IMG/VR virus record: IMGVR_UViG_3300022696_000066
Location: 1-36,289 of that record
Direction: 5' to 3' (one strand)
Origin: a virus
Length of the DNA stretch: 36,289 bases
This document shows positions 18,734 to 34,238 of the stretch, in pieces. The notes under the pieces were generated by a model, which was given only the letters and a program-made list of their open reading frames with translations, was not told where the DNA came from and did no database searches. The position numbers were made by a program, and so were the translations under genes. Within the stretch, counting starts at the first letter, position 1, and each line of letters begins with the position of its first letter.

Positions 18734-18928
18734 ATGAGTCAAACAGAAAAGGAAAAGGACAACCACTTTCGCTGCATGGTTTGTAATGCCTGGAAACTTC
18801 GAGGTTGTTATGCTCGTGTCATCAACGGGCCCTTCATGGGCTACTCTGTCAAGGTATGTAGAAAATCAAGTTGTGTTAAAAAAGGTATCGAGGGGCGGTT
18901 TAATGAAAACAAAAAAGTACGACCCTAA
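18734..18928 (+). CDS. Small zinc-finger-like protein, hypothetical
   Basis: 64 residues. Cys pattern CMVC (15-18), GC (about 25), then CRKSSC (about 42-47) suggests one zinc-binding treble-clef or similar fold, with a basic tail. Overlaps the small terminase gene by 26 bases and opens the packaging block, so a role in packaging, DNA recognition or late control is possible. Family unknown. Confidence 0.5.
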   Translation: MSQTEKEKDNHFRCMVCNAWKLRGCYARVINGPFMGYSVKVCRKSSCVKKGIEGRFNENKKVRP

Positions 18929-19355
18929 GTTCTGTGACTTTCTTATTGACCACATGAGTCGAGGGTATAGCTACGAGTCCTTTGCGGCCAATGTAAACGT
19001 AGGTAAATCCACCCTTTACTACTGGGAAAACAAACACCCAGAGTGGAAGGAAGCTAAAGAAATAGGCTGGTCTAAGAGTCAATTGTTTTGGGAGCAACTT
19101 GGAAAAGCTGGCTGCTCGGGTCAGGTCCCAGGCTATAACAACGCCACCTGGATATTCACCATGAAGAACCGATTTGGCTACAGAGATGAACACCATCTCC
19201 ACAGCAACAACACAAATGTAAATGTGAACCTACAAGTTGAAGGCAAGCAAAAATCTCCTGTTATCGAGAAGTTAGAGAAGCAAATGCTCGGGGCACCGCC
19301 AGAGCGAGACGTAACACCTGTAAAAATTGACGCAAGACAAAAAGAAAGTGTATGA
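18903..19355 (+). CDS. terS: Terminase small subunit candidate
   Basis: 150 residues from the ATG at 18903, after GAGGGGCGG; a much earlier in-frame start at 18786 is not used because it would lie over the zinc-finger gene. The N-terminal part (KFCDFLIDHMSRGYSYESFAANVNVGKSTLYYWENKHPEWKEA) is a helix-turn-helix of the kind that TerS proteins use to bind pac or cos DNA; the rest is a coiled-coil/oligomerisation part and a charged tail. Four-base overlap with the large-subunit ATPase half. Confidence 0.8.
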   Translation: MKTKKYDPKFCDFLIDHMSRGYSYESFAANVNVGKSTLYYWENKHPEWKEAKEIGWSKSQLFWEQLGKAGCSGQVPGYNNATWIFTMKNRFGYRDEHHLHSNNTNVNVNLQVEGKQKSPVIEKLEKQMLGAPPERDVTPVKIDARQKESV

Positions 19356-20068
19356 GCAACTTCTTAACGCCCAAGGTTTACCATAGCCTTGAGGAGTCAG
19401 AGCAAAAAGAGGCGCAGCAAATTTACCTTAAGTCTGACCTTATGGCCTTTTGTCACTTCCTTGGCTATACAGACGTAAACAAGCACACGCATGAAGAAAT
19501 TATCACCGCTCTTGAGTCACCGCATAAGCGAAAGCTCATTACTGTGCCCAGGGGAGCCTTTAAGTCATCCATTGCCTCAATTGCTTATCCAATCTGGAAA
19601 TTGCTCAGAGACCCAAATGAGCGCATTCTTATCGACTCTGAGGTTTTTAGTAACGCTGTGACATATTTAAGATCAATTAAAACTCACATTCAAAGTGCTG
19701 ATTTTATTGAGATGTTTGGGGATATTACCGGAGACCCGTGGCAGGAAAGCAACATTCAGGTTAGGACAAGGACTAAGAACTACAAAGAGCCAAGTATCAC
19801 TTGCGGTGGTGTGGCAACGACAAAGGTCGGGCAGCATTACTCGACAATAATCGGGGATGACTACAATTCGAGAGAAAACAGTAAGACGCGAGAGGCTGCG
19901 ATGAAGGTTGTTGATCATTATAGGTACAATCTGAATATCCTTGAGCCTGACGGAGAGTATGTCATAATTGGAACACGCTACAGTGAAGATGATCTAATCG
20001 GATTTATTTTACGCGAGCAATTAAATCAGATGATTTTAGCCGAGGGGAAGTTTGATGAGTGGAAATGA
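19352..20068 (+). CDS. terL-N: Terminase large subunit, N-terminal ATPase half (split gene)
   Basis: 238 residues. Motor motifs are complete: the Walker A variant VPRGAFKSS (65-73), Walker B STIIGDD (164-170, DD instead of DE) and the coupling motif IIGTRYSEDDL (205-215). The protein stops just after, in the linker before the nuclease domain. The nuclease domain is a separate gene 4.3 kb away (24367-25182); together 238+271 = 509 residues, a normal full TerL. Its C-terminus overlaps the first cassette gene by 14 bases. No intein or intron signature at the end. If the halves associate, packaging works as a two-chain motor; otherwise packaging would need another nuclease. Confidence 0.85.
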   Translation: MSNFLTPKVYHSLEESEQKEAQQIYLKSDLMAFCHFLGYTDVNKHTHEEIITALESPHKRKLITVPRGAFKSSIASIAYPIWKLLRDPNERILIDSEVFSNAVTYLRSIKTHIQSADFIEMFGDITGDPWQESNIQVRTRTKNYKEPSITCGGVATTKVGQHYSTIIGDDYNSRENSKTREAAMKVVDHYRYNLNILEPDGEYVIIGTRYSEDDLIGFILREQLNQMILAEGKFDEWK

Positions 20069-20345
20069 GCGAGCCTATGTCTTGGGCGCAACAAACATAA
20101 GTGTAGGGGCATCGGTTACGGTTGAGTTTGTGCCGCCTGCTGGAATGCAGTCGGGCTACATTGTGCCACTGAGCGGAACGCTAGGCATAGGCGGTGCGAC
20201 TCTCTCTGACGCCACTAATGGTTTTGTTGTTCCAAGTGGCGGCGTAGAGGTTGGTGGTCCTGCAAAATTTTATCTTGGCGCTGGTGCTGGTGCTGCGGTT
20301 GCGACAGTATTAATTAGAGGATCTGCGGGAGCCACACTTGGCTAG
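20055..20345 (+). CDS. Small beta-rich protein, virion-associated candidate
   Basis: 96 residues from the ATG at 20055, after GAGGGGAAG, overlapping the ATPase-half gene by 14 bases (an in-frame TTG three bases upstream is possible). Entirely beta-type: Gly, Val, Ala, Thr repeats such as VGASVTVEFVPPAGM, GTLGIGGATLSD and GAGAGAAVATVLIRG. This composition is common in capsid decoration or tail-fibre accessory subunits. No family recognised. First gene of the cassette that separates the terminase halves. Confidence 0.5.
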   Translation: MSGNERAYVLGATNISVGASVTVEFVPPAGMQSGYIVPLSGTLGIGGATLSDATNGFVVPSGGVEVGGPAKFYLGAGAGAAVATVLIRGSAGATLG

Positions 20346-20700
20346 GCTATTTCAATCCGGCGGCGGCGGGGCTGGAATATCTGGCTTTGCCACCGAGACA
20401 ATTAGTGCTGCGGGCACAATTTCGTCAACATCAAGCGGCATTCAATCACGTCCAGTAGTTGGCGATGGCGGCGCGGTCACTGCCTCAGGCACTCCCTTTG
20501 GAACATCAATTAACTGGCAGAATGGAACAATGATTGTTCTACGTGGAACAGATGCCACAAATACAGTTCGCATTGACCACAATGATGTTACTGATGGGGC
20601 CATACTTAACGGAACAGCAACACTTGGCGAAAACGACATTTTAAGTTTAGTTTACGACTCCAACGCAGAGCGGTGGATTGAGGTCTCAAGGAATTTCTAG
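20338..20700 (+). CDS. Small beta-rich protein, tail/decoration candidate
   Basis: 120 residues with a TTG start overlapping the previous stop by eight bases. A Gly-rich N-terminus (QSGGGGAGISGFATETI) precedes beta strands ending in GENDILSLVYDSNAERWIEVSRN, a pattern seen at the ends of phage tail-fibre and decoration proteins ('...d..sl.yd.....WievsR.'). Likely exposed on the virion; not proven. Confidence 0.5.
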   Translation: MARLFQSGGGGAGISGFATETISAAGTISSTSSGIQSRPVVGDGGAVTASGTPFGTSINWQNGTMIVLRGTDATNTVRIDHNDVTDGAILNGTATLGENDILSLVYDSNAERWIEVSRNF

Positions 20701-20790
20701 TTGAGTGACTTAGGTGTTTACTTAGGAATAATAGCAATGGGAGCTTTTATGCTCTTTTTAATGTTTGTAGGAGACGATTGGGATGAATAA
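20701..20790 (+). CDS. 29-residue single-span membrane protein
   Basis: TTG start directly after the previous stop, with AAGGAA about seven bases upstream; its stop overlaps the ATG of the following adhesin-like gene. Residues 4-24 (LGVYLGIIAMGAFMLFLMFVG) are a membrane span and the C-terminus is acidic (DDWDE). Packing with both neighbours supports it. Confidence 0.45.
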   Translation: MSDLGVYLGIIAMGAFMLFLMFVGDDWDE

Positions 20791-23200
20791 AAGGCTTTGG
20801 GTTTTGCTTCTAATGATTGTGCCAGCTGTGGCCATTGGCATTGGTTCAGCTAAGCGTCAGCTAAACTTGCCTGGATTTGCTTCAGATCGCCTTCTTTATG
20901 TCGGTCCCAACAATAACATTGATGACTCTGCGATTGTTGTCGGAGGCGCTACAGACGACGAGCTTTCCGGCATTGGTGTTTTGACTGTTGATAATTTACA
21001 GATGAACACCAACACACTAAACACAAGCTCCGGGGATCTAAACCTAGACGCTAATGGGGCTGTAAACCTTGGCGGCGGCGGCACAATTGCAAATCTTTTG
21101 GAGGGCTCGCCTCTGCGCTTCCAAGACCAAACGGGCGGAGAATATATTGCTTTTCAACCGCCAACTGCTGTAACTAGCTCGACAACATTTACGCTTCCTG
21201 ATGGAGACGGGAATAATGGTCAGGCAATTGTAACTGATGGCTCTGGCGCTTTGTCTTGGGGTAACGCTGGAGCGTCGAGTAACTATATTTACTTTGATGA
21301 CTTTGAGGCTGACGAAGTTTCAAATGTTAGTGAATACAACGATGGTGCAAGCGCAACACCAACAGACCTAACGGGTGGCACGCCAGTTGATGCCTCAAGC
21401 TCGAGTGAAACAACAAATCCACTAAGCGGAGACGCGTCATATCTTTTAAGCAAGGCTGCGGCTGACGGCCAGGGCGAGGGCTGGGCAATTACCACCAAGG
21501 CTCTGCAAAGATTCGAAACTGTTGGCCCACAGAATATTACAATTAGCTTTGATTACGAAACATCGGCTAACTATGCCTCTGATGATGTAACGGTTTGGAT
21601 TTATCGCGTTGGGTCGGGCACTCTTGAGAGTTGCAGCGGGCTTAACTTTGCTGGATCTTTCAGCAATCAATTAAAGGCTTCCCCTGACGGGGCTTCTTAT
21701 TCTTGTGTGTTTTCTGTTAATAGCTCAGACACGAGCGTAAGGATTGGCTTACATATCGCTACAACCAATGCGAGCGCATACGATGTTGTCATTGATCGGA
21801 TTCAGGTGAGTACGGCAACACAGATTCCGGTGCCAATTATGACTAACGCGGAAGACTGCACTCCAAGTTATTCAGGGTTCACAGCGAACGCGGTTACAGC
21901 AAAATGTCGCCGTGATGGGCAGTTTTTAGAGGTCTGGTGGTCTGGGAATATAACTGGAGCAACAACACTCTTTGCTTTCAATCCACCTTCTGGTTACTCA
22001 GTTGATGAGAGCGCATTAAATACTGGTACGAACGGGATCGTAAAAATAGATGGTGGGGCCATCGCACTGGATGTTGGCACAGCATACAGAACAGGTGAAG
22101 CCCATTGGAACACTACAAATAATGCCGTATATATATTAAACGCAGGTGGCAGCTCCCCTTGGCAAGCGTCGGGCTCACCGCACGTTTGGGCGTCGGGCGA
22201 TGATCTTAGTATTTATTTCAAGGTGCCAATTGAACAATATGCCTCAAGCAACGCGACAATGTCCACGACTGCGGTGAATAATCAGCCTGTTTTGGCAAAT
22301 TGCGAAGTGACTTCAAGCACAGCGAATAGTTCTTTTGCAGACATTACCTACGAAACAATTGATTTCGATAACTGCACAGAGGATACCCATGACGCCGTGA
22401 CAACTGGAGCATCTTGGGTTTTCACAGCGCCTGTTCCAGGTCGATATAAGGTTTGTGGGTTAACCGGATGGGGCTCCGCGAACGATCTTCAGCAATCAGT
22501 AACAAAAATAAGGGTTAATGGTTCCGACCGTGACTTTATTGGCGGGCTAGGGAACGCTACAGCTACAACGGTGAGCAATATTCAGTCGTGGTCTTGTCGC
22601 ATTATAGCCCTTGAACAAGGAGACACGCTAGACGTTCAGGCTTATCAAGACAGTAATCCAAGTGCTGCGCGAGTACTTGCGACCGGATCATCTTTCAAAT
22701 CCTTTATTTCTATAGAGCGCAAACACGACTTCTCAACCTTTGGGGTCTATGGAGTGCATGAGATTTTGAGTGCGACAAGCTCAGTTAAAACGCCAAGTGG
22801 CAGCAGTCATTTTCACAACCATACGAACAATGAACTCGTATTAACTTCGGGCACATTTAGACTTTTAGGTTATGCAGAGTTTGCCAACAACGGCAGTGGC
22901 CCAGGTTACTCAAACGCACTTACTTTTTGGGGTGGGTCTGACGGCGCCGACAATGGAACGAATCCCGCAACGCTTGGTACTGTTTCGGGCCTTACGGTTA
23001 TTTCTGATACTTCTTCGGATTATCAAGGAACCCATTGGGTTGATGGAATAAGCTCTGCTGTCAACTTAAGGATGAGCACACAACCTCTAATTGTCCGGTG
23101 TGCAAGCTCGTGTACTGTCTATTTGAATACCTTCTCGGTGCAAACCACGTCATCGAACGCTCGAATAACTGTTTATCCAACAGCGGAAAGGCTTCAATAA
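20783..23200 (+). CDS. Large adhesin- or tail-fibre-like protein with a signal peptide
   Basis: 805 residues. The N-terminus MNKRLWVLLLMIVPAVAIGI is a convincing signal peptide, cleavage near GSA at about residue 23, which is unusual for a phage fibre. Residues about 100-165 contain the fibre motif YIAFQPPTAVTSSTTFTLPDGDGNNGQAIVTDG seen in phage fibres and in large bacterial surface proteins. Then follow a jelly-roll region (about 170-360, FDYETSANYASDDVTVWIY), a second module with pairs of Cys (about 500-640, C1q-like, NCEVTSS and YKVCGLTGWG) and a third repeat-like module to the end. Paired Cys fit an exported, disulfide-bonded protein. Either a host-surface adhesin or receptor-binding fibre exported during infection. 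Confidence 0.6.
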   Translation: MNKRLWVLLLMIVPAVAIGIGSAKRQLNLPGFASDRLLYVGPNNNIDDSAIVVGGATDDELSGIGVLTVDNLQMNTNTLNTSSGDLNLDANGAVNLGGGGTIANLLEGSPLRFQDQTGGEYIAFQPPTAVTSSTTFTLPDGDGNNGQAIVTDGSGALSWGNAGASSNYIYFDDFEADEVSNVSEYNDGASATPTDLTGGTPVDASSSSETTNPLSGDASYLLSKAAADGQGEGWAITTKALQRFETVGPQNITISFDYETSANYASDDVTVWIYRVGSGTLESCSGLNFAGSFSNQLKASPDGASYSCVFSVNSSDTSVRIGLHIATTNASAYDVVIDRIQVSTATQIPVPIMTNAEDCTPSYSGFTANAVTAKCRRDGQFLEVWWSGNITGATTLFAFNPPSGYSVDESALNTGTNGIVKIDGGAIALDVGTAYRTGEAHWNTTNNAVYILNAGGSSPWQASGSPHVWASGDDLSIYFKVPIEQYASSNATMSTTAVNNQPVLANCEVTSSTANSSFADITYETIDFDNCTEDTHDAVTTGASWVFTAPVPGRYKVCGLTGWGSANDLQQSVTKIRVNGSDRDFIGGLGNATATTVSNIQSWSCRIIALEQGDTLDVQAYQDSNPSAARVLATGSSFKSFISIERKHDFSTFGVYGVHEILSATSSVKTPSGSSHFHNHTNNELVLTSGTFRLLGYAEFANNGSGPGYSNALTFWGGSDGADNGTNPATLGTVSGLTVISDTSSDYQGTHWVDGISSAVNLRMSTQPLIVRCASSCTVYLNTFSVQTTSSNARITVYPTAERLQ

Positions 23201-23799
23201 TGAAACCCTTCATTTTAATTTTACTTTTGCCGTTAACAGCTAATGCCAATAATTACGTCATGAGATGCGACGACGACCCTTCAAAGTTTTGCGTTGTAAG
23301 TGGCGACCCAAGACCTAAAGGTGCTTTATTTCGAGCGCCGGACTTATCAAAGCTTGGTCAGATCAGAGACCGCTGGGGCGATATCTTACGCCGCCGCTTT
23401 CGACCCATTGACCGATCGCCAAGGTTTCTTAACTGCGAAGACGCCACCGACTGCCAGGCCAGAATTGATGCGGCTGGGGATAATGCTTGCCCACTTGGTG
23501 AAACTCCGCGCTTTGATGATTTGGCAAATCACCCAGACTTAACGCCAAGAAGCGGTTTTGAGCTAACGGGTCCTTGGTTTGCATGGTGCGAAAGGTGGGT
23601 GGGGTTTGAAATTGACCCGGCTAAACGTGATCAAGCCATCGCTGATTGGCAAGCAGAACGGTCTGCGGGGCAGGCAGAGCGACAAGCAAAGCGGCAGCTA
23701 TTTGAAAGAATGAAAACGCGATGCGATAATACGAGCGCTAATACCTTTCAGCGTGATGTGTGCCTGGTGCTCCGAGAAATTGTGAGCGAGCTAAGATGA
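23200..23799 (+). CDS. Exported hypothetical protein, Cys-containing
   Basis: 199 residues from the ATG that overlaps the adhesin stop (TAATG). Signal peptide residues 1-16 (KPFILILLLPLTANAN), cleavage after ANA. The mature protein holds several Cys (MRCDD, KFCVV, NCEDATDC, NACP, WCERW, RCDN, VCLV) and a Gln/Arg/Ala helix (RDQAIADWQAERSAGQAERQ). The longer frame starting at 23098 lies inside the adhesin gene and is rejected. Likely periplasmic or secreted; function unknown. A CxxxxCxxRIDAA segment resembles one in the i-spanin candidate. Confidence 0.5.
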   Translation: MKPFILILLLPLTANANNYVMRCDDDPSKFCVVSGDPRPKGALFRAPDLSKLGQIRDRWGDILRRRFRPIDRSPRFLNCEDATDCQARIDAAGDNACPLGETPRFDDLANHPDLTPRSGFELTGPWFAWCERWVGFEIDPAKRDQAIADWQAERSAGQAERQAKRQLFERMKTRCDNTSANTFQRDVCLVLREIVSELR

Positions 23800-24047
23800 C
23801 AAAAAGAATGGTAGCAAATATTGAATTTAAGGATTTTATAAACTGGGCCTTCATGGCTCTTCTTGCTGGGTGTATTATGTATGCAGTCGAGGCTGTGAAG
23901 GATTTGAATAAAGCTGTTCAGGTTAACAATGGTCACATTGCGACTTTAATCGAGCGTACAGGTTGGCACGGTGCGAAGTTTGTGACGCATGAGAAACGAC
24001 TAGACAGACACGAAAACAGAATTCAAGCTTTGGAGCAAAAGAACTAA
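23796..24047 (+). CDS. Single-span membrane protein, holin-like candidate
   Basis: 83 residues from the ATG at 23796, overlapping the previous stop (ATGA). One membrane span (about 15-35, NWAFMALLAGCIMYAVEAV), then a charged helix or coiled coil (about 36-83). This matches small phage holin-type or XhlA-like proteins of unknown action. No other holin is obvious near the lysis cassette, so this is one candidate, with the 63-residue protein at 8041 as another. Confidence 0.4.
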   Translation: MTKRMVANIEFKDFINWAFMALLAGCIMYAVEAVKDLNKAVQVNNGHIATLIERTGWHGAKFVTHEKRLDRHENRIQALEQKN

Positions 24048-24068
24048 AAACCAATCCTAGGGGGATAA

Positions 24069-24293
24069 ATGTTAGATGCAAAAGCCATTGCGCTTAAAAT
24101 TATTGATGAAGAGGGTCTAAAAAGCCTGCTGCTTGTAGACGTAGCCGACGGCGTTATTAAGGCAAAGCTTGATGAGCTAGTTCAATCGAGCGAAAACAGC
24201 CTTGATGATGCTCTTGTTGCGATGATCTACCCACTTGTTCGAGACGCTGTTGAACAGTTTCTTGACGAGAAGATTGCGGAGCTTCAGGCTTAA
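24069..24293 (+). CDS. Small acidic helical protein, hypothetical
   Basis: 74 residues, starting after AGGGGGATAA. Nearly all helix, acidic and Leu/Ala/Val-rich (KIIDEEGLKSLLLVDVADGV, VRDAVEQFLDEKIAELQA), a coiled-coil-forming profile. Last gene of the cassette before the terminator. Function unknown. Confidence 0.5.
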   Translation: MLDAKAIALKIIDEEGLKSLLLVDVADGVIKAKLDELVQSSENSLDDALVAMIYPLVRDAVEQFLDEKIAELQA

Positions 24294-24312
24294 TTAGGGC
24301 CCTGTAACCTTT

Positions 24313-24366
24313 TAAGGGTGCCCCAGTCATATACCCGACTCAATCCTGGGGTGCCCTTATTTTTTT
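24313..24366 (+). terminator. Rho-independent terminator at the cassette end
   Basis: A stem of about 13 bp with two G-U pairs (AAGGGTGCCCCAG with CTGGGGTGCCCTT, 24314-24357) and a 19-base loop, followed by ATTTTTTT. The T-run touches the ATG of the terminase nuclease half at 24367, leaving no room for a ribosome binding site. Confidence 0.75.
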
Positions 24367-25182
24367 ATGTTATTTGAAATTGAAACAGAGCAGCACACTT
24401 GGTTAGTCGCCTATGACAAGGCCATTCGCGACGATGGCACGCTATTCTTCCCCGAGCGATTAACAGAGGGGTTTTTAAAAGAGCAGCGCAAGGTCATGGG
24501 TCCTTACATCTTTGCTAACCAATACATGAATGAAATTATTCCTGGCGAGGATCAGGACTTTAAGAAGAGATGGCTTCAGTATTACGAGAAGCTCCCACCT
24601 AATTATAATACTTTTATCTTTTTAGACCCAGCCATTAGCCAGCAAGATCATGCTGATTATACGGCCTATGTTGTGGTTCATGTAGATCCGCATGGCTATT
24701 GGTATGTAGAGGCGGCAAAGCGTCAAAGAATTACGGCAACAGAAACCGTGAAGCTGATCTTTGATTTGAATGCGATGTATAAGCCGCGAAATATTGGGAT
24801 TGAAATTGTGGCTTATCAGCAGGCGCTTTTGCATTTTTTAAATGAGGAGATGCGAAGGCGCGGGACAGTTATACCGGTGACTGGAGTACGAAGAGGTCCT
24901 GATAAAACTAAAGAGCAAAGGATTTTAGCGCTTGTCCCCAGATATGAATGGGGTAGGATATTGCATAATCGAGGCCTTGAAGATTTAGAGGATGAGTACG
25001 CTAAATTCCCACGATCTAAGCATGATGATATTATAGATGCTTTGGCCTCTATTGAAGAAATATCGTACAACCCACCGAGTGAAAGGATATTAAATGAGCC
25101 GAAATCACCAAACGACCCAGGTTACGAAAGTTGGTACATCAGACAGCAAACCGAGGGAGACGGCGGAGAATTTGACTTCTAA
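24367..25182 (+). CDS. terL-C: Terminase large subunit, C-terminal nuclease half (split gene)
   Basis: 271 residues. LFFPERLTEGFLKEQRKVMGPYIFANQYMNEIIP (26-59) is the linker before the nuclease in TerL proteins; the RNase H-like nuclease has D87 in FLDPAI, E146 in IGIEIVAY and the acidic pair in KHDDIIDALA (219-227). It cuts concatemers at the start and end of packaging. No Walker motifs are present. No ribosome binding site precedes the ATG, and a terminator T-run ends at it, so expression must come from read-through or an unusual initiation. Overlaps the next gene by 89 bases. Confidence 0.85.
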   Translation: MLFEIETEQHTWLVAYDKAIRDDGTLFFPERLTEGFLKEQRKVMGPYIFANQYMNEIIPGEDQDFKKRWLQYYEKLPPNYNTFIFLDPAISQQDHADYTAYVVVHVDPHGYWYVEAAKRQRITATETVKLIFDLNAMYKPRNIGIEIVAYQQALLHFLNEEMRRRGTVIPVTGVRRGPDKTKEQRILALVPRYEWGRILHNRGLEDLEDEYAKFPRSKHDDIIDALASIEEISYNPPSERILNEPKSPNDPGYESWYIRQQTEGDGGEFDF

Positions 25183-25806: not shown

Positions 25807-27870
25807 ATGTTTAAGCGGGTCGATGAGCGTTTAGAGGCTGCCTTAAATGGCGATGATGTTGAATTAAAAGATGTGTCTGACCAAACGGAGTCAGAAAAGC
25901 ACCTAGCCTCTTATGTAAAGGACCAAATTGAAGAGGTTCGCAACAGCTCAAGCCGCATTGTAAATGAGGGCCAGTGGCTTACTAATTCTGCTTATTTATT
26001 AGGTTTTACAAATCTGTTCTTTGATACGTCTTTAAGAATGTATCGGCCAATTAATATGCCCAACCGTTCTGTTCGAGGGAATCGGATTGAATTTAATTAC
26101 ATCTTGCCCAACATCCAAAACAGACTGGCTCGATTAACAAAGAGCCCACCGCGTTATAATGTTAAACCTAACTCTACAAGTGACGACGATAGGGAGGGCG
26201 CTCGCCTTGGTCTTTATTTAATTGGCCAGGTGTGGGATCAGCAGCGAATTAACAAGAAGCGTTTAACAATGACTATGGCAATGCAGCAGATGGGATACGC
26301 TTATCTGAAGGCAAGTTGGGACCCGTCTTTAGGGCCGCAGATCAAGTACCGAGAAGATGATGGCTCGGTAATGACCCGCACTCTTGGGGATATTCGCATA
26401 GATGTGTGTTCTCCCTTTGAGGTTTTTGTTGATCCACTTGCTAAGAGCCATGAGGAAACCAATTGGTTGATTCACGCTAAGATCAGGCCCATTAGTTATT
26501 TTCGCACACAATATCCAGAGCGCGGGCACTTGGTTAAGCCAGAGGGTGTATGGCTACAATCCCTTGAATATCAAAACAGAATTAACAGTTTTAATGCTCA
26601 GGTAGGTGCTGGCAGTGGTGCGAATAACGCCATTGAAAATGCGGCGATTGAGCTTATGCTCTATGAAAAGCCTTCATACAAGCAACCACAGGGGCGTCAT
26701 ATTATTGTCGCAAATGGTGTGCTGCTTAAAAATGCAGACTTGCCGATTGATGAAATACCTTTCGCTAAGTTTGATGACATTATGGTTGCTGGTAAGTATG
26801 CGTCAGAGAGCGTTATTACTCACCTTCGCAATCTTCAGGATCAGTATAATAGAACACTGACCCAGAGGGCGCGTTGGACGAACAGACTTCTTGCTGGCAA
26901 GTATTTAACGGCTAAAGGGTCTGGTCTTAAGGCTTCGGCGTTAAATGACCAGAGCGGTGAAGTGGTCGAGTTTGATCCTGTTCCAGGTGCGCCGCCGCCG
27001 ACTCCCTTACAAACGCCAACTATACCTCAATATGCCTATAATGAGGATGACTACATTAAAGGCATGATGAATGAAATGTCTGGGGTGGGGGAAATTTCTA
27101 AAGGCAACTTACCGTCTGCTGGTATTCCGGCAATAGGTATGCAGTTCTTACAGGAAATGGATGACACCCGTATTGGGACAATTACAGAAAACAATGAGTA
27201 TGGTTATGCTGATGTTGGTCGGTTTATTCTTAAATTTGCTGAAAAGTATTACAGCTATCCGCGAATGCTCAAGAAGGCGGGCAAGGGCATGGAATATGCC
27301 GTACAGAGTTTTAAAGGCTCAGACCTTAAAGGCAATACGGATGTTGTAGTTGTAAGGGGCTCGACTCTGCCAGGATCTAAAGTCCTACGCAGACAGGAGA
27401 TTATTAACCTTCACCAACAGGGTTATCTTGGAGACCCAGCCGACCCTCAAGTTCTGGAAAATGTGCTTCAGATGCTTGAGTATGGAGATATTGGTGAGGT
27501 CTGGAAGGATTACAGTCTTGATAAAGCTTCTATTGATGAGGCTATTGAAAAGATTGAAAACGACATCATGCCTCATGTGAGCGAGTTTGATAATCACCCG
27601 CTTTATATTAAAGAGCTTAACCGCTACCGCAAGTCTGATAATTTTAAACAGTTATCACCACAGGCTCAGCAGATGTTGTTAGAGGTTATGGAGCTTCATC
27701 TTCAGTACATGGCTGATATTACCGACCCTGACAGCGCGGATGAGGGCGCGGGCATGAACCCTGAAGAGGAAATGAGCATGGTTGCCCAGGAGATGCAGCA
27801 AGAAGAGGAAGCAAAAGTTGCTCAAGAAATGATTCAAGAAGATGAGCCTATTGGTGAGGGAGAAATTTAA
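25807..27870 (+). CDS. Portal protein, P22-like size
   Basis: 687 residues. Twelve copies of such proteins form the DNA channel at one capsid vertex. Typical portal parts: an N-terminal helical region, a core with NRIEFNYILPNIQNRLARLTKSPPRYNVKP (about 97-127), the wing segments around residues 180-240, and a C-terminal coiled-coil, acidic end (MNPEEEMSMVAQEMQQEEE). The 'NRI..N...p.i....a+lt...P...V.P' block is typical of large podovirus portals. TAATG overlap with the next gene. Confidence 0.8.
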   Translation: MFKRVDERLEAALNGDDVELKDVSDQTESEKHLASYVKDQIEEVRNSSSRIVNEGQWLTNSAYLLGFTNLFFDTSLRMYRPINMPNRSVRGNRIEFNYILPNIQNRLARLTKSPPRYNVKPNSTSDDDREGARLGLYLIGQVWDQQRINKKRLTMTMAMQQMGYAYLKASWDPSLGPQIKYREDDGSVMTRTLGDIRIDVCSPFEVFVDPLAKSHEETNWLIHAKIRPISYFRTQYPERGHLVKPEGVWLQSLEYQNRINSFNAQVGAGSGANNAIENAAIELMLYEKPSYKQPQGRHIIVANGVLLKNADLPIDEIPFAKFDDIMVAGKYASESVITHLRNLQDQYNRTLTQRARWTNRLLAGKYLTAKGSGLKASALNDQSGEVVEFDPVPGAPPPTPLQTPTIPQYAYNEDDYIKGMMNEMSGVGEISKGNLPSAGIPAIGMQFLQEMDDTRIGTITENNEYGYADVGRFILKFAEKYYSYPRMLKKAGKGMEYAVQSFKGSDLKGNTDVVVVRGSTLPGSKVLRRQEIINLHQQGYLGDPADPQVLENVLQMLEYGDIGEVWKDYSLDKASIDEAIEKIENDIMPHVSEFDNHPLYIKELNRYRKSDNFKQLSPQAQQMLLEVMELHLQYMADITDPDSADEGAGMNPEEEMSMVAQEMQQEEEAKVAQEMIQEDEPIGEGEI

Positions 27871-29116: not shown

Positions 29117-29153
29117 CCTTTATTAGACCGCACAAACTTATGTGGGGTTAAAA

Positions 29154-30374
29154 ATGTCTAATCAATTTCAAAACGTGACTTCAGGTCTGGCTGAGCTGAA
29201 GAATTACTATCAAGGGCCGATTCAAGATCAGCTCAACGAGGACTTGCCGATTTATCGTGCAGCCTCTGTTGGGAAACATTCTTGGAGTGGTCAACAAGTT
29301 ATTCGTCCGTGGCGCGTTCGCCGAAACCAAGGTATTGGTGCAACTTCTGATGGTGGGAGCCTTCCTTCTATCGGTCGCCAAACCACTGTGCAGGCAATTA
29401 TCCCTGCAAAGTTCAACTACCTTCGTTTTGGTGTAACCGGCCCAATGATTGCGGCTTCTCAAAGTGACATTGGCTCGTTTGTTCGCGCTGCTGCCTTTGA
29501 ATTGAAGATGGGTTATGTTGACTTAAAGTCAGATGTAAACCGTCAGCTTTCCTGGGATGGTACTGGGGACCTTGCTCGACTTAATGCTGCTGCTGCTGCC
29601 TCTACGTCTATTGTTATCAAAGGGCGTGAGGATACTGAGGCTGCTCTTAAGTTTGTAGACATTGGAACCGAGTTTGATGTTTACACTTCTGCTGGTGTTC
29701 TAGTTCAATCTGGTGTTCAGGTAACTGCTATCACTGCTGGTGACGCGGCTTCATCTACAGCTACTTTGACTGTAAATGCTGCGGTGACCGCTAGTGCTGA
29801 TGACATTCTTGTGCGCGCTAATTCTTTTGGCCAAGAAATCCAAGGTCTTTTGACTCAACTTGATGGTGGGACAACTACTGTTTTTAACGTAGACCGTTCT
29901 GCTTATATTTCTGCACAAGGCAACCAGCTTGACCTTTCTGGTGGGCAGTTAAGCCTTGACGATATGCAGCGGGCTGAAGATGAGGCAATGCGACGTGGTG
30001 GCGCTAAGTTGTCTGCGATTTACACTGACTTCGCTTCTAAGCGTATGTATCAGAAATTGCTGACTGCTGATAAGCGCTATGTGAATACAATCCAAGGTGA
30101 CGGTGGATTTGCTAATAAGGGCGAGAGCTACTTAGAATTCAATGGCAAGCCAGTTGTGGCCGACAAGGATTGTCCAACCCGCATGTTCTTCTTAGATGAT
30201 TCTTACATTGTTAAGTACATCTTGAAGGAAATGGAATTTGCCTCTGAGACTGGGACTATGTACATTGCCCAGCCTGAGAGCGATGAGTTGGAAGTTCGTT
30301 TGCGTCTATTTGCAAACCTCTTCAACGAGATGCCTTCAGGTTCAGCAGTTATTACTAACTATGTGAGCCCGTAA
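29154..30374 (+). CDS. Major capsid protein (HK97-fold type)
   Basis: 406 residues from the ATG at 29154, seven bases after GGGG; a GTG at 29142 would add four residues. N-terminal region (FQNVTSGLAELKNYYQGPIQDQLNEDLPI), a mid-region with Ala/Thr-rich insertion (about 150-230) that fits a surface loop domain, then GGQLSLDDMQRAEDEAMRRGGAKLSAIYTDFASKRMYQKLL and a C-terminal beta-rich end (YIAQPESDELEVRLRLFANLFNEMPSGSAVI) typical of HK97-fold coats. High gene position after scaffold supports it. Confidence 0.85.
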   Translation: MSNQFQNVTSGLAELKNYYQGPIQDQLNEDLPIYRAASVGKHSWSGQQVIRPWRVRRNQGIGATSDGGSLPSIGRQTTVQAIIPAKFNYLRFGVTGPMIAASQSDIGSFVRAAAFELKMGYVDLKSDVNRQLSWDGTGDLARLNAAAAASTSIVIKGREDTEAALKFVDIGTEFDVYTSAGVLVQSGVQVTAITAGDAASSTATLTVNAAVTASADDILVRANSFGQEIQGLLTQLDGGTTTVFNVDRSAYISAQGNQLDLSGGQLSLDDMQRAEDEAMRRGGAKLSAIYTDFASKRMYQKLLTADKRYVNTIQGDGGFANKGESYLEFNGKPVVADKDCPTRMFFLDDSYIVKYILKEMEFASETGTMYIAQPESDELEVRLRLFANLFNEMPSGSAVITNYVSP

Positions 30375-32018: not shown

Positions 32019-34238
32019 ATGTCACGGAGCACAATAAAAGATCGCCCAAGTATTGCTTTGGCAATCATTGTAAAGAATGAGGCTCATAATCTGGGTCCAT
32101 TATTACAGTCTGTTGAGGGTTGTTTTGATCAAATACACATTACAGATACAGGCTCAACAGATAGCACAATTCAATTGTTAAATGACGATAAGCTCAGCGT
32201 TGTGGCTAAGGCTCCTGTTTTTGTGTCTCACTTTAAGTGGTGTGATGATTTTGCAAAGGCTCGCAATTATAATTTCTCACAGGTTCCAAAATCTATGGAC
32301 TATGTAATGTGGATGGACGCTGACGATGTGTTGTCAGACAAAGATGCGTTTATTCACTGGCGAGACAACACTCTTCACACAGCCCATAGGCACTTTGCAA
32401 ATTACAATTATGCTTATGATAATCACGGCAACCCTGCTTGCACCTTTTTTAGAGAGCGTGTGATTCGTAATAACTATGGGTTTTATTGGAAGTATTTTAT
32501 TCACGAGGGCATTGTTCACGATGGGGATAAAAAAGTGGACGATATGTTTTGCCCTACTTGGACAATTAATCACAGCCGCACGAAGGCTGACGAAAAGGCT
32601 GACCGCAATCGCAATATTGCTATCTTTGAAAAGCACAAAGAAGAGGGTGAGCTAGACCCTAGGATGCAATATTACTACGCTAAGGAGCTTTTTGATGCGG
32701 GCCATTTTCTAAAGTCGGTTAAGGCTTTTGAGGCTTTAAGTGTCTTTGATGGGCAAAATGGTCTGGACATTCATGACAGAATTATGGCCCAGCAATATTT
32801 GTCGATGGCCTATGGTCAATGCGGTAAGTGGGATGAAAGTCTGACTATTGCTTTAAATGGGCTCAGGAAGGCTCCAGAAAGGTCAGAGCTTTTAATTTGT
32901 GTGGCTGATGCTCTTGTAAGGATTGGTAACTCACGTGCGGCTAAGGGCTATTATGAACACGCCAAGCACGGTGAATCTATCTCTGTTGGTGGTACTATTT
33001 ATACAAGCCCTCATGCGCGTCTGATTTATCCTTACTACCAATTGGCTCATATTTATTTGCAAGAATACAACTGGAAAGCGGCAGAGAAGGAGCTTCAGCA
33101 CCTTGAAAAGATGGGAGAGCAGCCCGTTGATTTGATCGCAAGGTGTAATGAAATGAAGGCTTTAGATCAGCAGCCTCAAAGTAGTGATCTGGTTGAAAAC
33201 CTTGATATTGTTATTAGTACACCGCCGGGCGTTTATGTTAGTGAGTATGATGAGAACGTGCTTCAAAGGGAAGGGCTTGGAGGGTCTGAGACCGCTCTTG
33301 TTGAAGTCGCTCGCTTACTTCACCAAAAAACAAAGCGCCCGGTTAAGGTGTTTCAAAAAAGAAGACAGTCAGAGGAAATGCCAAGCGGAGTTGAGTATTT
33401 ACCCATTGAGCAAGCGGCTGATTATTTTCGTAGGTACAAGCCGTCTCGCCATATCGCATGGCGCCATGCCAATGATTTAACGCCAGCCAAGACCTATGTT
33501 TGGTCGCATGATTTAATTACTCCTGGGATTGAGAAGTTAAAAGACAATATGAAGCTTTGGTGTTTAACCGAGTTTCATAAGAATTTTGTCCATGATTTGC
33601 GTGGCGTTTCAAAGAATAAGATCGATATTGTTCAAAACGGCATCGAGCCTAAGTTATTTGAGAACAGTCATCTGGTTAAAATCCCTCACAAGGTCATTTT
33701 CTCTAGTAGTCCCGACCGTGGCTGGGAGCGGGCCATTGAGATTTGCAAGCGCAGCCGTGAGGTTATCCCAGACCTTGAGCTCCATTTATTTTACGGGACT
33801 GGGAATATGCGCAAGGCGGGTCATGAATCCGAAGCAAATCGTCTAGATAATCTTGTTGCCCAGTATGATTGGGTTAAGTATCACGGCTTTGTAGATAAGC
33901 AGACGCTCGTAAATCACTTTCTTGAGTCGGCTGTGTGGCTTTATCCTGCGGATTTTATTGAGACCTCGTGTATTACGGCTATGGAGGCCCTTTGCGCTGG
34001 GGCGTTTCCGCTGGTTCGCAACATGGGAGCCCTTCGATATACCTTAAAAGAGGCTTATGAGCATGGAATGTGTGATATTTTAGACCTAGATGCTTATGAT
34101 GACACGACTTATAGCCAGTGGGCAGATAAATTAACCGAGCACCTTTTGGCTGAGTCATACAAGAAGGTTGACGTTGATCGGTCATTTTATAGCTGGGAAA
34201 ATCGCATTGAGGGCTATATAAAGTCTATGAATCTCTGA
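32019..34238 (+). CDS. Bifunctional glycosyltransferase: GT2-TPR-GT4 fusion
   Basis: 739 residues from the ATG after AAAGGAG. Residues about 10-130 are a GT2 domain: IALAIIVKNEAHNLGPLLQSV, TDTGSTD (42-48) and the metal-binding DADD (100-103). Residues about 210-390 are TPR-like helices (YYYAKELFDAGHFLKSVKAFEALSVF and repeats). The C-terminal part is GT4-like: SSSPDRGWERAIEICKRS binds the sugar nucleotide and FIETSCITAMEAL has the E-X7-E pair (E648, E656). A membrane anchor is absent. Targets could be a virion protein, a host glycan or modified DNA. It sits alone among head genes with its own divergent promoter region. Confidence 0.75.
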   Translation: MSRSTIKDRPSIALAIIVKNEAHNLGPLLQSVEGCFDQIHITDTGSTDSTIQLLNDDKLSVVAKAPVFVSHFKWCDDFAKARNYNFSQVPKSMDYVMWMDADDVLSDKDAFIHWRDNTLHTAHRHFANYNYAYDNHGNPACTFFRERVIRNNYGFYWKYFIHEGIVHDGDKKVDDMFCPTWTINHSRTKADEKADRNRNIAIFEKHKEEGELDPRMQYYYAKELFDAGHFLKSVKAFEALSVFDGQNGLDIHDRIMAQQYLSMAYGQCGKWDESLTIALNGLRKAPERSELLICVADALVRIGNSRAAKGYYEHAKHGESISVGGTIYTSPHARLIYPYYQLAHIYLQEYNWKAAEKELQHLEKMGEQPVDLIARCNEMKALDQQPQSSDLVENLDIVISTPPGVYVSEYDENVLQREGLGGSETALVEVARLLHQKTKRPVKVFQKRRQSEEMPSGVEYLPIEQAADYFRRYKPSRHIAWRHANDLTPAKTYVWSHDLITPGIEKLKDNMKLWCLTEFHKNFVHDLRGVSKNKIDIVQNGIEPKLFENSHLVKIPHKVIFSSSPDRGWERAIEICKRSREVIPDLELHLFYGTGNMRKAGHESEANRLDNLVAQYDWVKYHGFVDKQTLVNHFLESAVWLYPADFIETSCITAMEALCAGAFPLVRNMGALRYTLKEAYEHGMCDILDLDAYDDTTYSQWADKLTEHLLAESYKKVDVDRSFYSWENRIEGYIKSMNL

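Follow-up and report, generated by a model that had tools for sequence, protein, structure and literature searches.

Two genes matching one large terminase

The large terminase subunit (TerL) is the DNA-packaging motor of tailed phages, is nearly always a single protein and has a counterpart in herpesviruses. We analysed its genes in the IMG/VR record IMGVR_UViG_3300022696_000066, a whole virus record of 36,289 bp that is hereafter called the window. As listed below, two open reading frames (ORFs) on the same strand, 4,298 bp apart, match adjoining stretches of one TerL profile of PHROG, phrog_38.

19352..20068, + strand: TerL-N, ATPase (ASCE) core without the lid, 238 residues (phrog_38 columns 268-465, E 1.5e-35)
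24367..25182, + strand: TerL-C, lid, linker and RNase H-like nuclease, 271 residues (phrog_38 columns 468-715, E 1.9e-52)

A previous reading of the letters alone (the sequence-only reading) had described these two ORFs and their motifs, and both were confirmed. TerL-N has an ASCE ATPase core with both Walker motifs and a coupling motif, and carries PRGAFKS (Walker A, residues 66-72), IIGDD (Walker B, 166-170) and GTRY (207-210); in the alignment of relatives, the invariant residues of the N-half include PRGxxK of Walker A, DD of Walker B and TRY. An RNase H-like nuclease with acidic metal-binding residues is present in TerL-C, where D87, E146 and D221 are invariant across 49 relatives and the fold is like that of terminase nucleases. 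TerL-C also matches Pfam Terminase_6C (1e-8). The AlphaFold2 models reached predicted local distance difference test (pLDDT) values of 92.4 for TerL-N and 84.6 for TerL-C, and terminases were the best Foldseek matches for both halves: the ATPase domains of the PhiV-1 terminase (8dgc_E), T4 gp17 and P74-26 for TerL-N, and the PhiV-1 terminase, the human cytomegalovirus (HCMV) terminase nuclease domain, T4 gp17 and the G20c nuclease for TerL-C. The window thus holds the parts of a TerL in two ORFs, with one N and one C match only, and not in a single polypeptide with both domains. Judging from sequence comparison, we consider it very probable that the window encodes a natural, stably inherited two-gene large terminase, which would act as two chains without a covalent link.

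Position of the break

The sequence-only reading had put the break into the ATPase/nuclease linker. Mapping onto the P74-26 and D6E terminases showed that this was off by one subdomain, because the break aligned before the lid, at about residue 175 of D6E and about residues 191-212 of P74-26. The D6E sequence was checked against the residue numbers of PMC5727402 and then aligned, and R44, K47, N169, Y213, R224, N362 and D394 agreed. Meanwhile, nuclease residue D87 of TerL-C aligned with D263 of D6E and D294 of P74-26. According to these alignments, the break is inside the ATPase domain, between the ASCE catalytic core and the lid. As the break precedes the lid, TerL-C comprises lid, linker and nuclease.

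Two relatives (related contigs are labelled L with a number) allowed the site to be compared at the residue level. The fused TerL of L008 reads ...GTRYSFADLYGYLLEEAMNV-FIVHKRGAIHPDGTLYFPS..., with a spacing of 35 residues across the corresponding site. In the split L063, the N-half ends ...GTRYSAADVYQYILDDLI and the C-half restarts LSWSLVQKKAIDEDGNLLFPE..., again with 35 residues of spacing. With the same number of residues spanning the site in the split and the fused form, nothing is missing between the halves, and the earlier statement that they together make a complete TerL was correct.

In D6E, Tyr213 contacts the P-loop arginine, Arg44 (PMC5727402). Tyr47 of TerL-C falls on D6E Tyr213 under one of two alignment settings, and because of this placement an inter-chain contact between Arg67 of TerL-N and Tyr47 of TerL-C, after the Arg44-Tyr213 pair, is put forward as a weak proposal.

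Occurrence of the split in related contigs

Viral contigs were scanned with alignment queries; a single C-half sequence returned 8 relatives and a single N-half sequence none, while an alignment of C-halves gave 78 loci. All C-halves at least 47% identical to that of the window are split (clade range 47-69%), and all C-half relatives at or below 40% identity with a readable frame are one-gene TerLs. Each of the 59 informative loci (58 and the window) shows a stop in the C frame 0-41 codons before the conserved lid strand and carries no N-half in frame with the C-half. An independent N-half scan gave a similar picture: readable N-halves of at least 44% identity all end within about 30 residues past the conserved match and none is fused, fused TerLs appearing only at N-half identities of 43% or less. 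Relatives with the same split, for which the sequence-only reading had suggested a search, were therefore found in number: about 80 further contigs of uncultivated phages, which come from more than 50 metagenomes (a hand count that includes some near-duplicates). Both halves lie on a single contig in about 50 of these, with gaps of 224-6,346 bp. In trees whose basal supports are modest, 57 C-halves were monophyletic against 14 outgroups with a low branch support of 0.485, and 30 insert-type TerLs formed one clade in the full-length tree, which was built with FastTree (support 0.83).

Since about 80 related contigs share this break, the arrangement resembles a functioning motor in two parts more than a gene that has been damaged. 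On this comparison the split is a stably inherited trait of a clade, neither an assembly error nor a recent accident. The recent insertion tolerated by the phage, which the sequence-only reading had offered as an alternative, does not agree with a split that is common to so divergent a clade and accompanied by inserts of very different size and content. An assembly chimera or scaffolding artefact that misjoined an intact terL with other genes might be suspected as the clade is known from metagenome contigs alone and some relatives (L012) hold N runs. Its probability is negligible: conservation of the same break with differing inserts across these contigs and metagenomes already refutes it, and the halves stop and start at codons of their own rather than at cut codons.

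It might also be supposed that one half is a relic or was repurposed and that another, undetected terminase packages the DNA. Contigs may be incomplete, and a lone N-half could be an ATPase with another role. The phrog_38 search of 17 long contigs, however, returned exactly one N and one C match in 17/17 and no further match; neither an intact TerL elsewhere nor a decayed half, an outcome that would have overturned the sequence-only reading, was found in them. In addition, the catalytic residues are invariant in both halves, the halves are jointly retained and diverge together, and they sit beside the small terminase subunit (TerS) and portal genes. We thus regard a relic or repurposed half as very improbable.

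Function and separate translation of the halves

The distances among N-halves and among C-halves were correlated (Mantel r 0.63, permutation p 0.0002). Both halves were under purifying selection: in the most similar pairs that were not identical, synonymous change was at or near saturation and nonsynonymous change was 0.1-0.3. With the invariant motifs, this selection and co-diversification bear out the earlier view that both halves look functional, as far as sequences can tell. Intein-like insertions were observed at Walker A of the N-half in L055 (5833-7641) and at the HDD motif of the nuclease in the C-half of L065 (1655-3400). Since a half interrupted at a catalytic motif would otherwise not work, such an intein must splice out, and both cases were counted for functional halves.

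A start codon (ATG, GTG or TTG) stands ahead of the conserved region in 58 of 59 C-halves. The C-half start overlaps or abuts the stop of an upstream ORF in 37 of the 59 loci, the gene directly upstream varies among phages, and each N-half closes with a variable tail, 0-40 residues long. These data bear on a further explanation, namely that a trans-splicing intron or a split intein rejoins the halves into a full-length TerL. Introns and inteins do occur in phage terL (PMC5618024, PMC3322345), and intein-like insertions are present in the TerLs of L008, L199, L076, L055 and L065. No intein-like sequence was detected at the N-half ends or C-half starts of the clade, however, and Rfam searches of the window and of six relatives with short gaps or adjacent halves gave no intron, so that the element expected at the break of an interrupted terL is absent there. 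Moreover, C-half starts that overlap the stops of unrelated genes upstream speak for separate translation, and about 20 residues separate the L008 intein site from the break. Rejoining is accordingly given only a small chance. Because of the same offset of the L008 site, an intein at GTRY was dismissed as the origin of the split; readthrough or frameshifting across the gap was dismissed too, as the halves of L045 share a frame but 41 stops lie in that frame. Among the fused relatives, the inteins of L008 (3457-5931) and L199 (from about 5500) lie at the GTRY motif, and that of L076 (4737-7016) lies in the lid (IFS|C).

If the two-chain reading is correct, the halves would be translated separately and would dock at the portal without a covalent link, the lid of the C-chain would close over the ATP site of the N-chain (Arg67 facing Tyr47), and the complex would pump and cut DNA like a one-chain TerL. 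It is likely that this uncultured clade packages its DNA with such a heteromeric TerL, in which the core-lid hinge would be a non-covalent contact between chains, and that fission at this joint was repeated in TerL evolution.

Several observations weigh against a two-chain motor. T4 gp17 that was cut at the linker kept its ATPase and nuclease activities and lost translocation completely (PMC3012670); a severed TerL is therefore not automatically active, although gp17 was cut at the ATPase/nuclease linker and the break here precedes the lid. Members of the clade were absent from a scan of 84,980 prokaryote genomes, and no close relative has been cultured. Finally, the window TerL-C start has no Shine-Dalgarno sequence and stands directly behind a terminator-like hairpin:

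24313..24366, + strand: terminator-like hairpin and T7 run, immediately adjoining the TerL-C ATG (-23.8 kcal/mol, z -4.06)

A terminator-like hairpin with a T7 run likewise abuts the TerL-C ATG in L009 (1800-1842), again without a Shine-Dalgarno sequence, and L009 and the window are divergent.

The hairpin between the halves, together with the unequal dosage that separate genes allow, would also suit two distinct machines, with translocation left to the ATPase chain by itself and the lid-nuclease chain joining only to cut DNA at the start and end of packaging. How ATP hydrolysis in the core reaches DNA through the lid is still argued, and in current models the lid drives the DNA on ATP hydrolysis (PMC5727402). 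This lid is on the nuclease chain, hence the ATPase chain alone would be without its transmission part. As the C-half start also overlaps the preceding same-strand gene in many relatives, two separate machines seem unlikely.

Genes between the halves

The following ORFs occupy the insert of the window, and their roles, like those of the other insert genes, are mostly assigned from gene type.

20055..20345, + strand: small, beta-rich-looking protein of a recurrent gap family, 33% identical to the L012 member, with a presumed structural role
20338..20700, + strand: cassette protein, akin to one portion of a fibre-like protein of L061 (BLAST cluster with L061_3411)
20783..23200, + strand: 805-residue protein with a hydrophobic N-terminus, fibre-like to judge from its sequence
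23200..23799, + strand: protein with a signal-peptide-like N-terminus, for which a lysis-associated role is a guess
23796..24047, + strand: short protein that has a single hydrophobic segment and ends in a coiled-coil-like tail, weakly holin/XhlA-like (sub-threshold XhlA E 0.0087)
24069..24293, + strand: 74-residue protein, from the ORF list

The first of these begins inside the end of TerL-N. It belongs to a family of small proteins (about 95-125 residues, motif GPxxFYLxAxGAT) which BLAST clustering placed in 31 of 36 gaps and which is probably a virion protein. The window member matched no PHROG or Pfam family, and the same is true of 20783..23200, 23200..23799 and 24069..24293. Where 20783..23200 sits, other gaps hold ORFs of similar size that are repetitive or beta-rich. 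The variable content of the gaps further includes big fibre-like ORFs, glycosyltransferase-like and other genes, and small hydrophobic proteins, and 171 of 180 gap ORFs lie on the terminase strand. The shortest gap, that of L026 (224 bp), contains one 75-residue gene coupled at both ends, and the longest measures 6.3 kb. Of the 4.3-kb unrelated cassette proposed by the sequence-only reading, the size was right (4,298 bp), but its content is not random DNA, consisting of same-strand phage genes that include the recurrent small family.

L008 has a CHAP protein and fibre-like proteins between its intact TerL and its portal. Homology of the clade cassette to this L008 cassette was considered and rejected for want of sequence support, only the gene types being alike. 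The insert may be a place where fast-changing, host-linked genes are kept, in which case the fission would have opened a new slot.

Other fissions at the core-lid joint

N and C genes that adjoin but differ in frame were found in L193 (474-2026) and L194 (3716-5268), both with an ATGA overlap, and in L172 (331-1882) with a 23-nt overlap. These three group with the fused L180 (support 0.996). The halves of L190 (7938-9499) are adjacent through TAATG, and L190 groups with the fused L173 (support 1.0). Both sets appear to have split independently of the window clade. Given that each set groups with a fused TerL, the gene appears to have broken at the core-lid joint repeatedly, at least twice by these trees and probably three times; L190 is a single contig and could be a sequencing frameshift. 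The likeliest history of the window type would be gene fission via overlapping frames, as in L193 and L194, followed by gene insertion between the cistrons.

Comparison with known systems

In phages of Arthrobacter cluster AY, two consecutive genes have been described as encoding one TerL domain each (PMC11920828, PMC12820723). As in the window, the ATPase and nuclease domains of BillyTP (genes 2 and 3) and BlueShadow (genes 2 and 3) are on two genes; these phages are viable isolates, BillyTP being plaque-forming (PMC11920828), and no intron was reported. Separate genes without a splicing element are thus common to both systems, while consecutive genes and a lid/nuclease break are not features of the window. 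In the BillyTP record the TerL genes are consecutive with a 17-bp overlap and the break comes after the lid, just before the nuclease domain, about 75 residues later than in the window. The AY TerLs are divergent and have no inserted module, in contrast to the 0.2-6.3 kb between the halves in the window clade. The sequence-only reading had suggested a new two-chain motor, of which the two-chain part is supported by the clade-wide split, whereas the word new is tempered by cluster AY. A two-gene TerL is already known there, and it is the different joint, the separated genes and the clade-wide occurrence that constitute the novelty relative to the AY phages.

Among solved structures, the T7-type PhiV-1 terminase (8dgc) and DNA maturase B (4bij, 4bil) are closest to the N-half by sequence, and the PhiV-1 terminase is closest by fold to both halves; unlike the window TerL, the T7-type TerL is one chain. 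A PDB search with the fused L086 gave no match. The isolates Shocker, Jasmine, ctEqG8 and DS1, which have a similar capsid module, were tried as fused comparators and rejected, since the split-half profiles do not match their TerLs.

Herpesvirus UL15/UL89 comprises two exons with other virus genes in the intron, and the spliced mRNA gives one chain, with the break elsewhere. Its terminase gene is thereby divided by other virus genes, as in the window. In T4 gp17, the artificial split also yielded two polypeptides each with enzymatic activity, from a laboratory construct (PMC3012670). The terL frame is likewise interrupted, by introns or inteins, in Staphylococcus phage fRuSau02 (PMC5618024) and Campylobacter phage IBB_35 (PMC3322345). 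Their product is thought to be rejoined by splicing, whereas the window halves have their own stop and start and no splicing element was found. In open-access text, with subscription papers outside the search, we found no description of the window clade or of a TerL divided by a gene cassette.

If the two-chain reading is true, the covalent core-lid hinge would be dispensable, and the clade would provide a natural system in which either half, or the interface between them, could be exchanged or titrated. In genome surveys that rely on full-length TerL as a marker, such phages will be read as carriers of a partial gene.

Neighbouring genes and gene order

The order TerS, TerL, portal and capsid, which is the usual context of a TerL, was found around the two halves.

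18786..19355, + strand: TerS (phrog_309, E 2.4e-12)
25807..27870, + strand: portal protein (phrog_156, E 6.7e-27)
29142..30374, + strand: major capsid protein (MCP; phrog_14242, E 4.5e-46)

In the window the end of TerS overlaps the TerL-N start via ATGA, and TerS homologues are directly upstream of TerL-N in L023, L033, L038, L049, L053, L060 and L062. Downstream of TerL-C come two small genes, then the portal, a scaffold-like gene and the capsid protein. The portal lies about 1 kb downstream of TerL-C in nearly all clade loci, and the clade keeps the order portal-scaffold-MCP.

On the contig of L035 (G023, 36,513 bp), the C-half is located at 2005 and the N-half at 32616. A C-half near the contig start and an N-half near its end are as expected for a permuted or circular genome, which suggests that this contig is a permuted version of the genome and that the DNA is circular or terminally redundant. 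Amid the structural genes of the window, 32019-34238 encodes a 739-residue protein with two differing glycosyltransferase matches, phrog_13126 at the N-terminus and phrog_2170 at the C-terminus.

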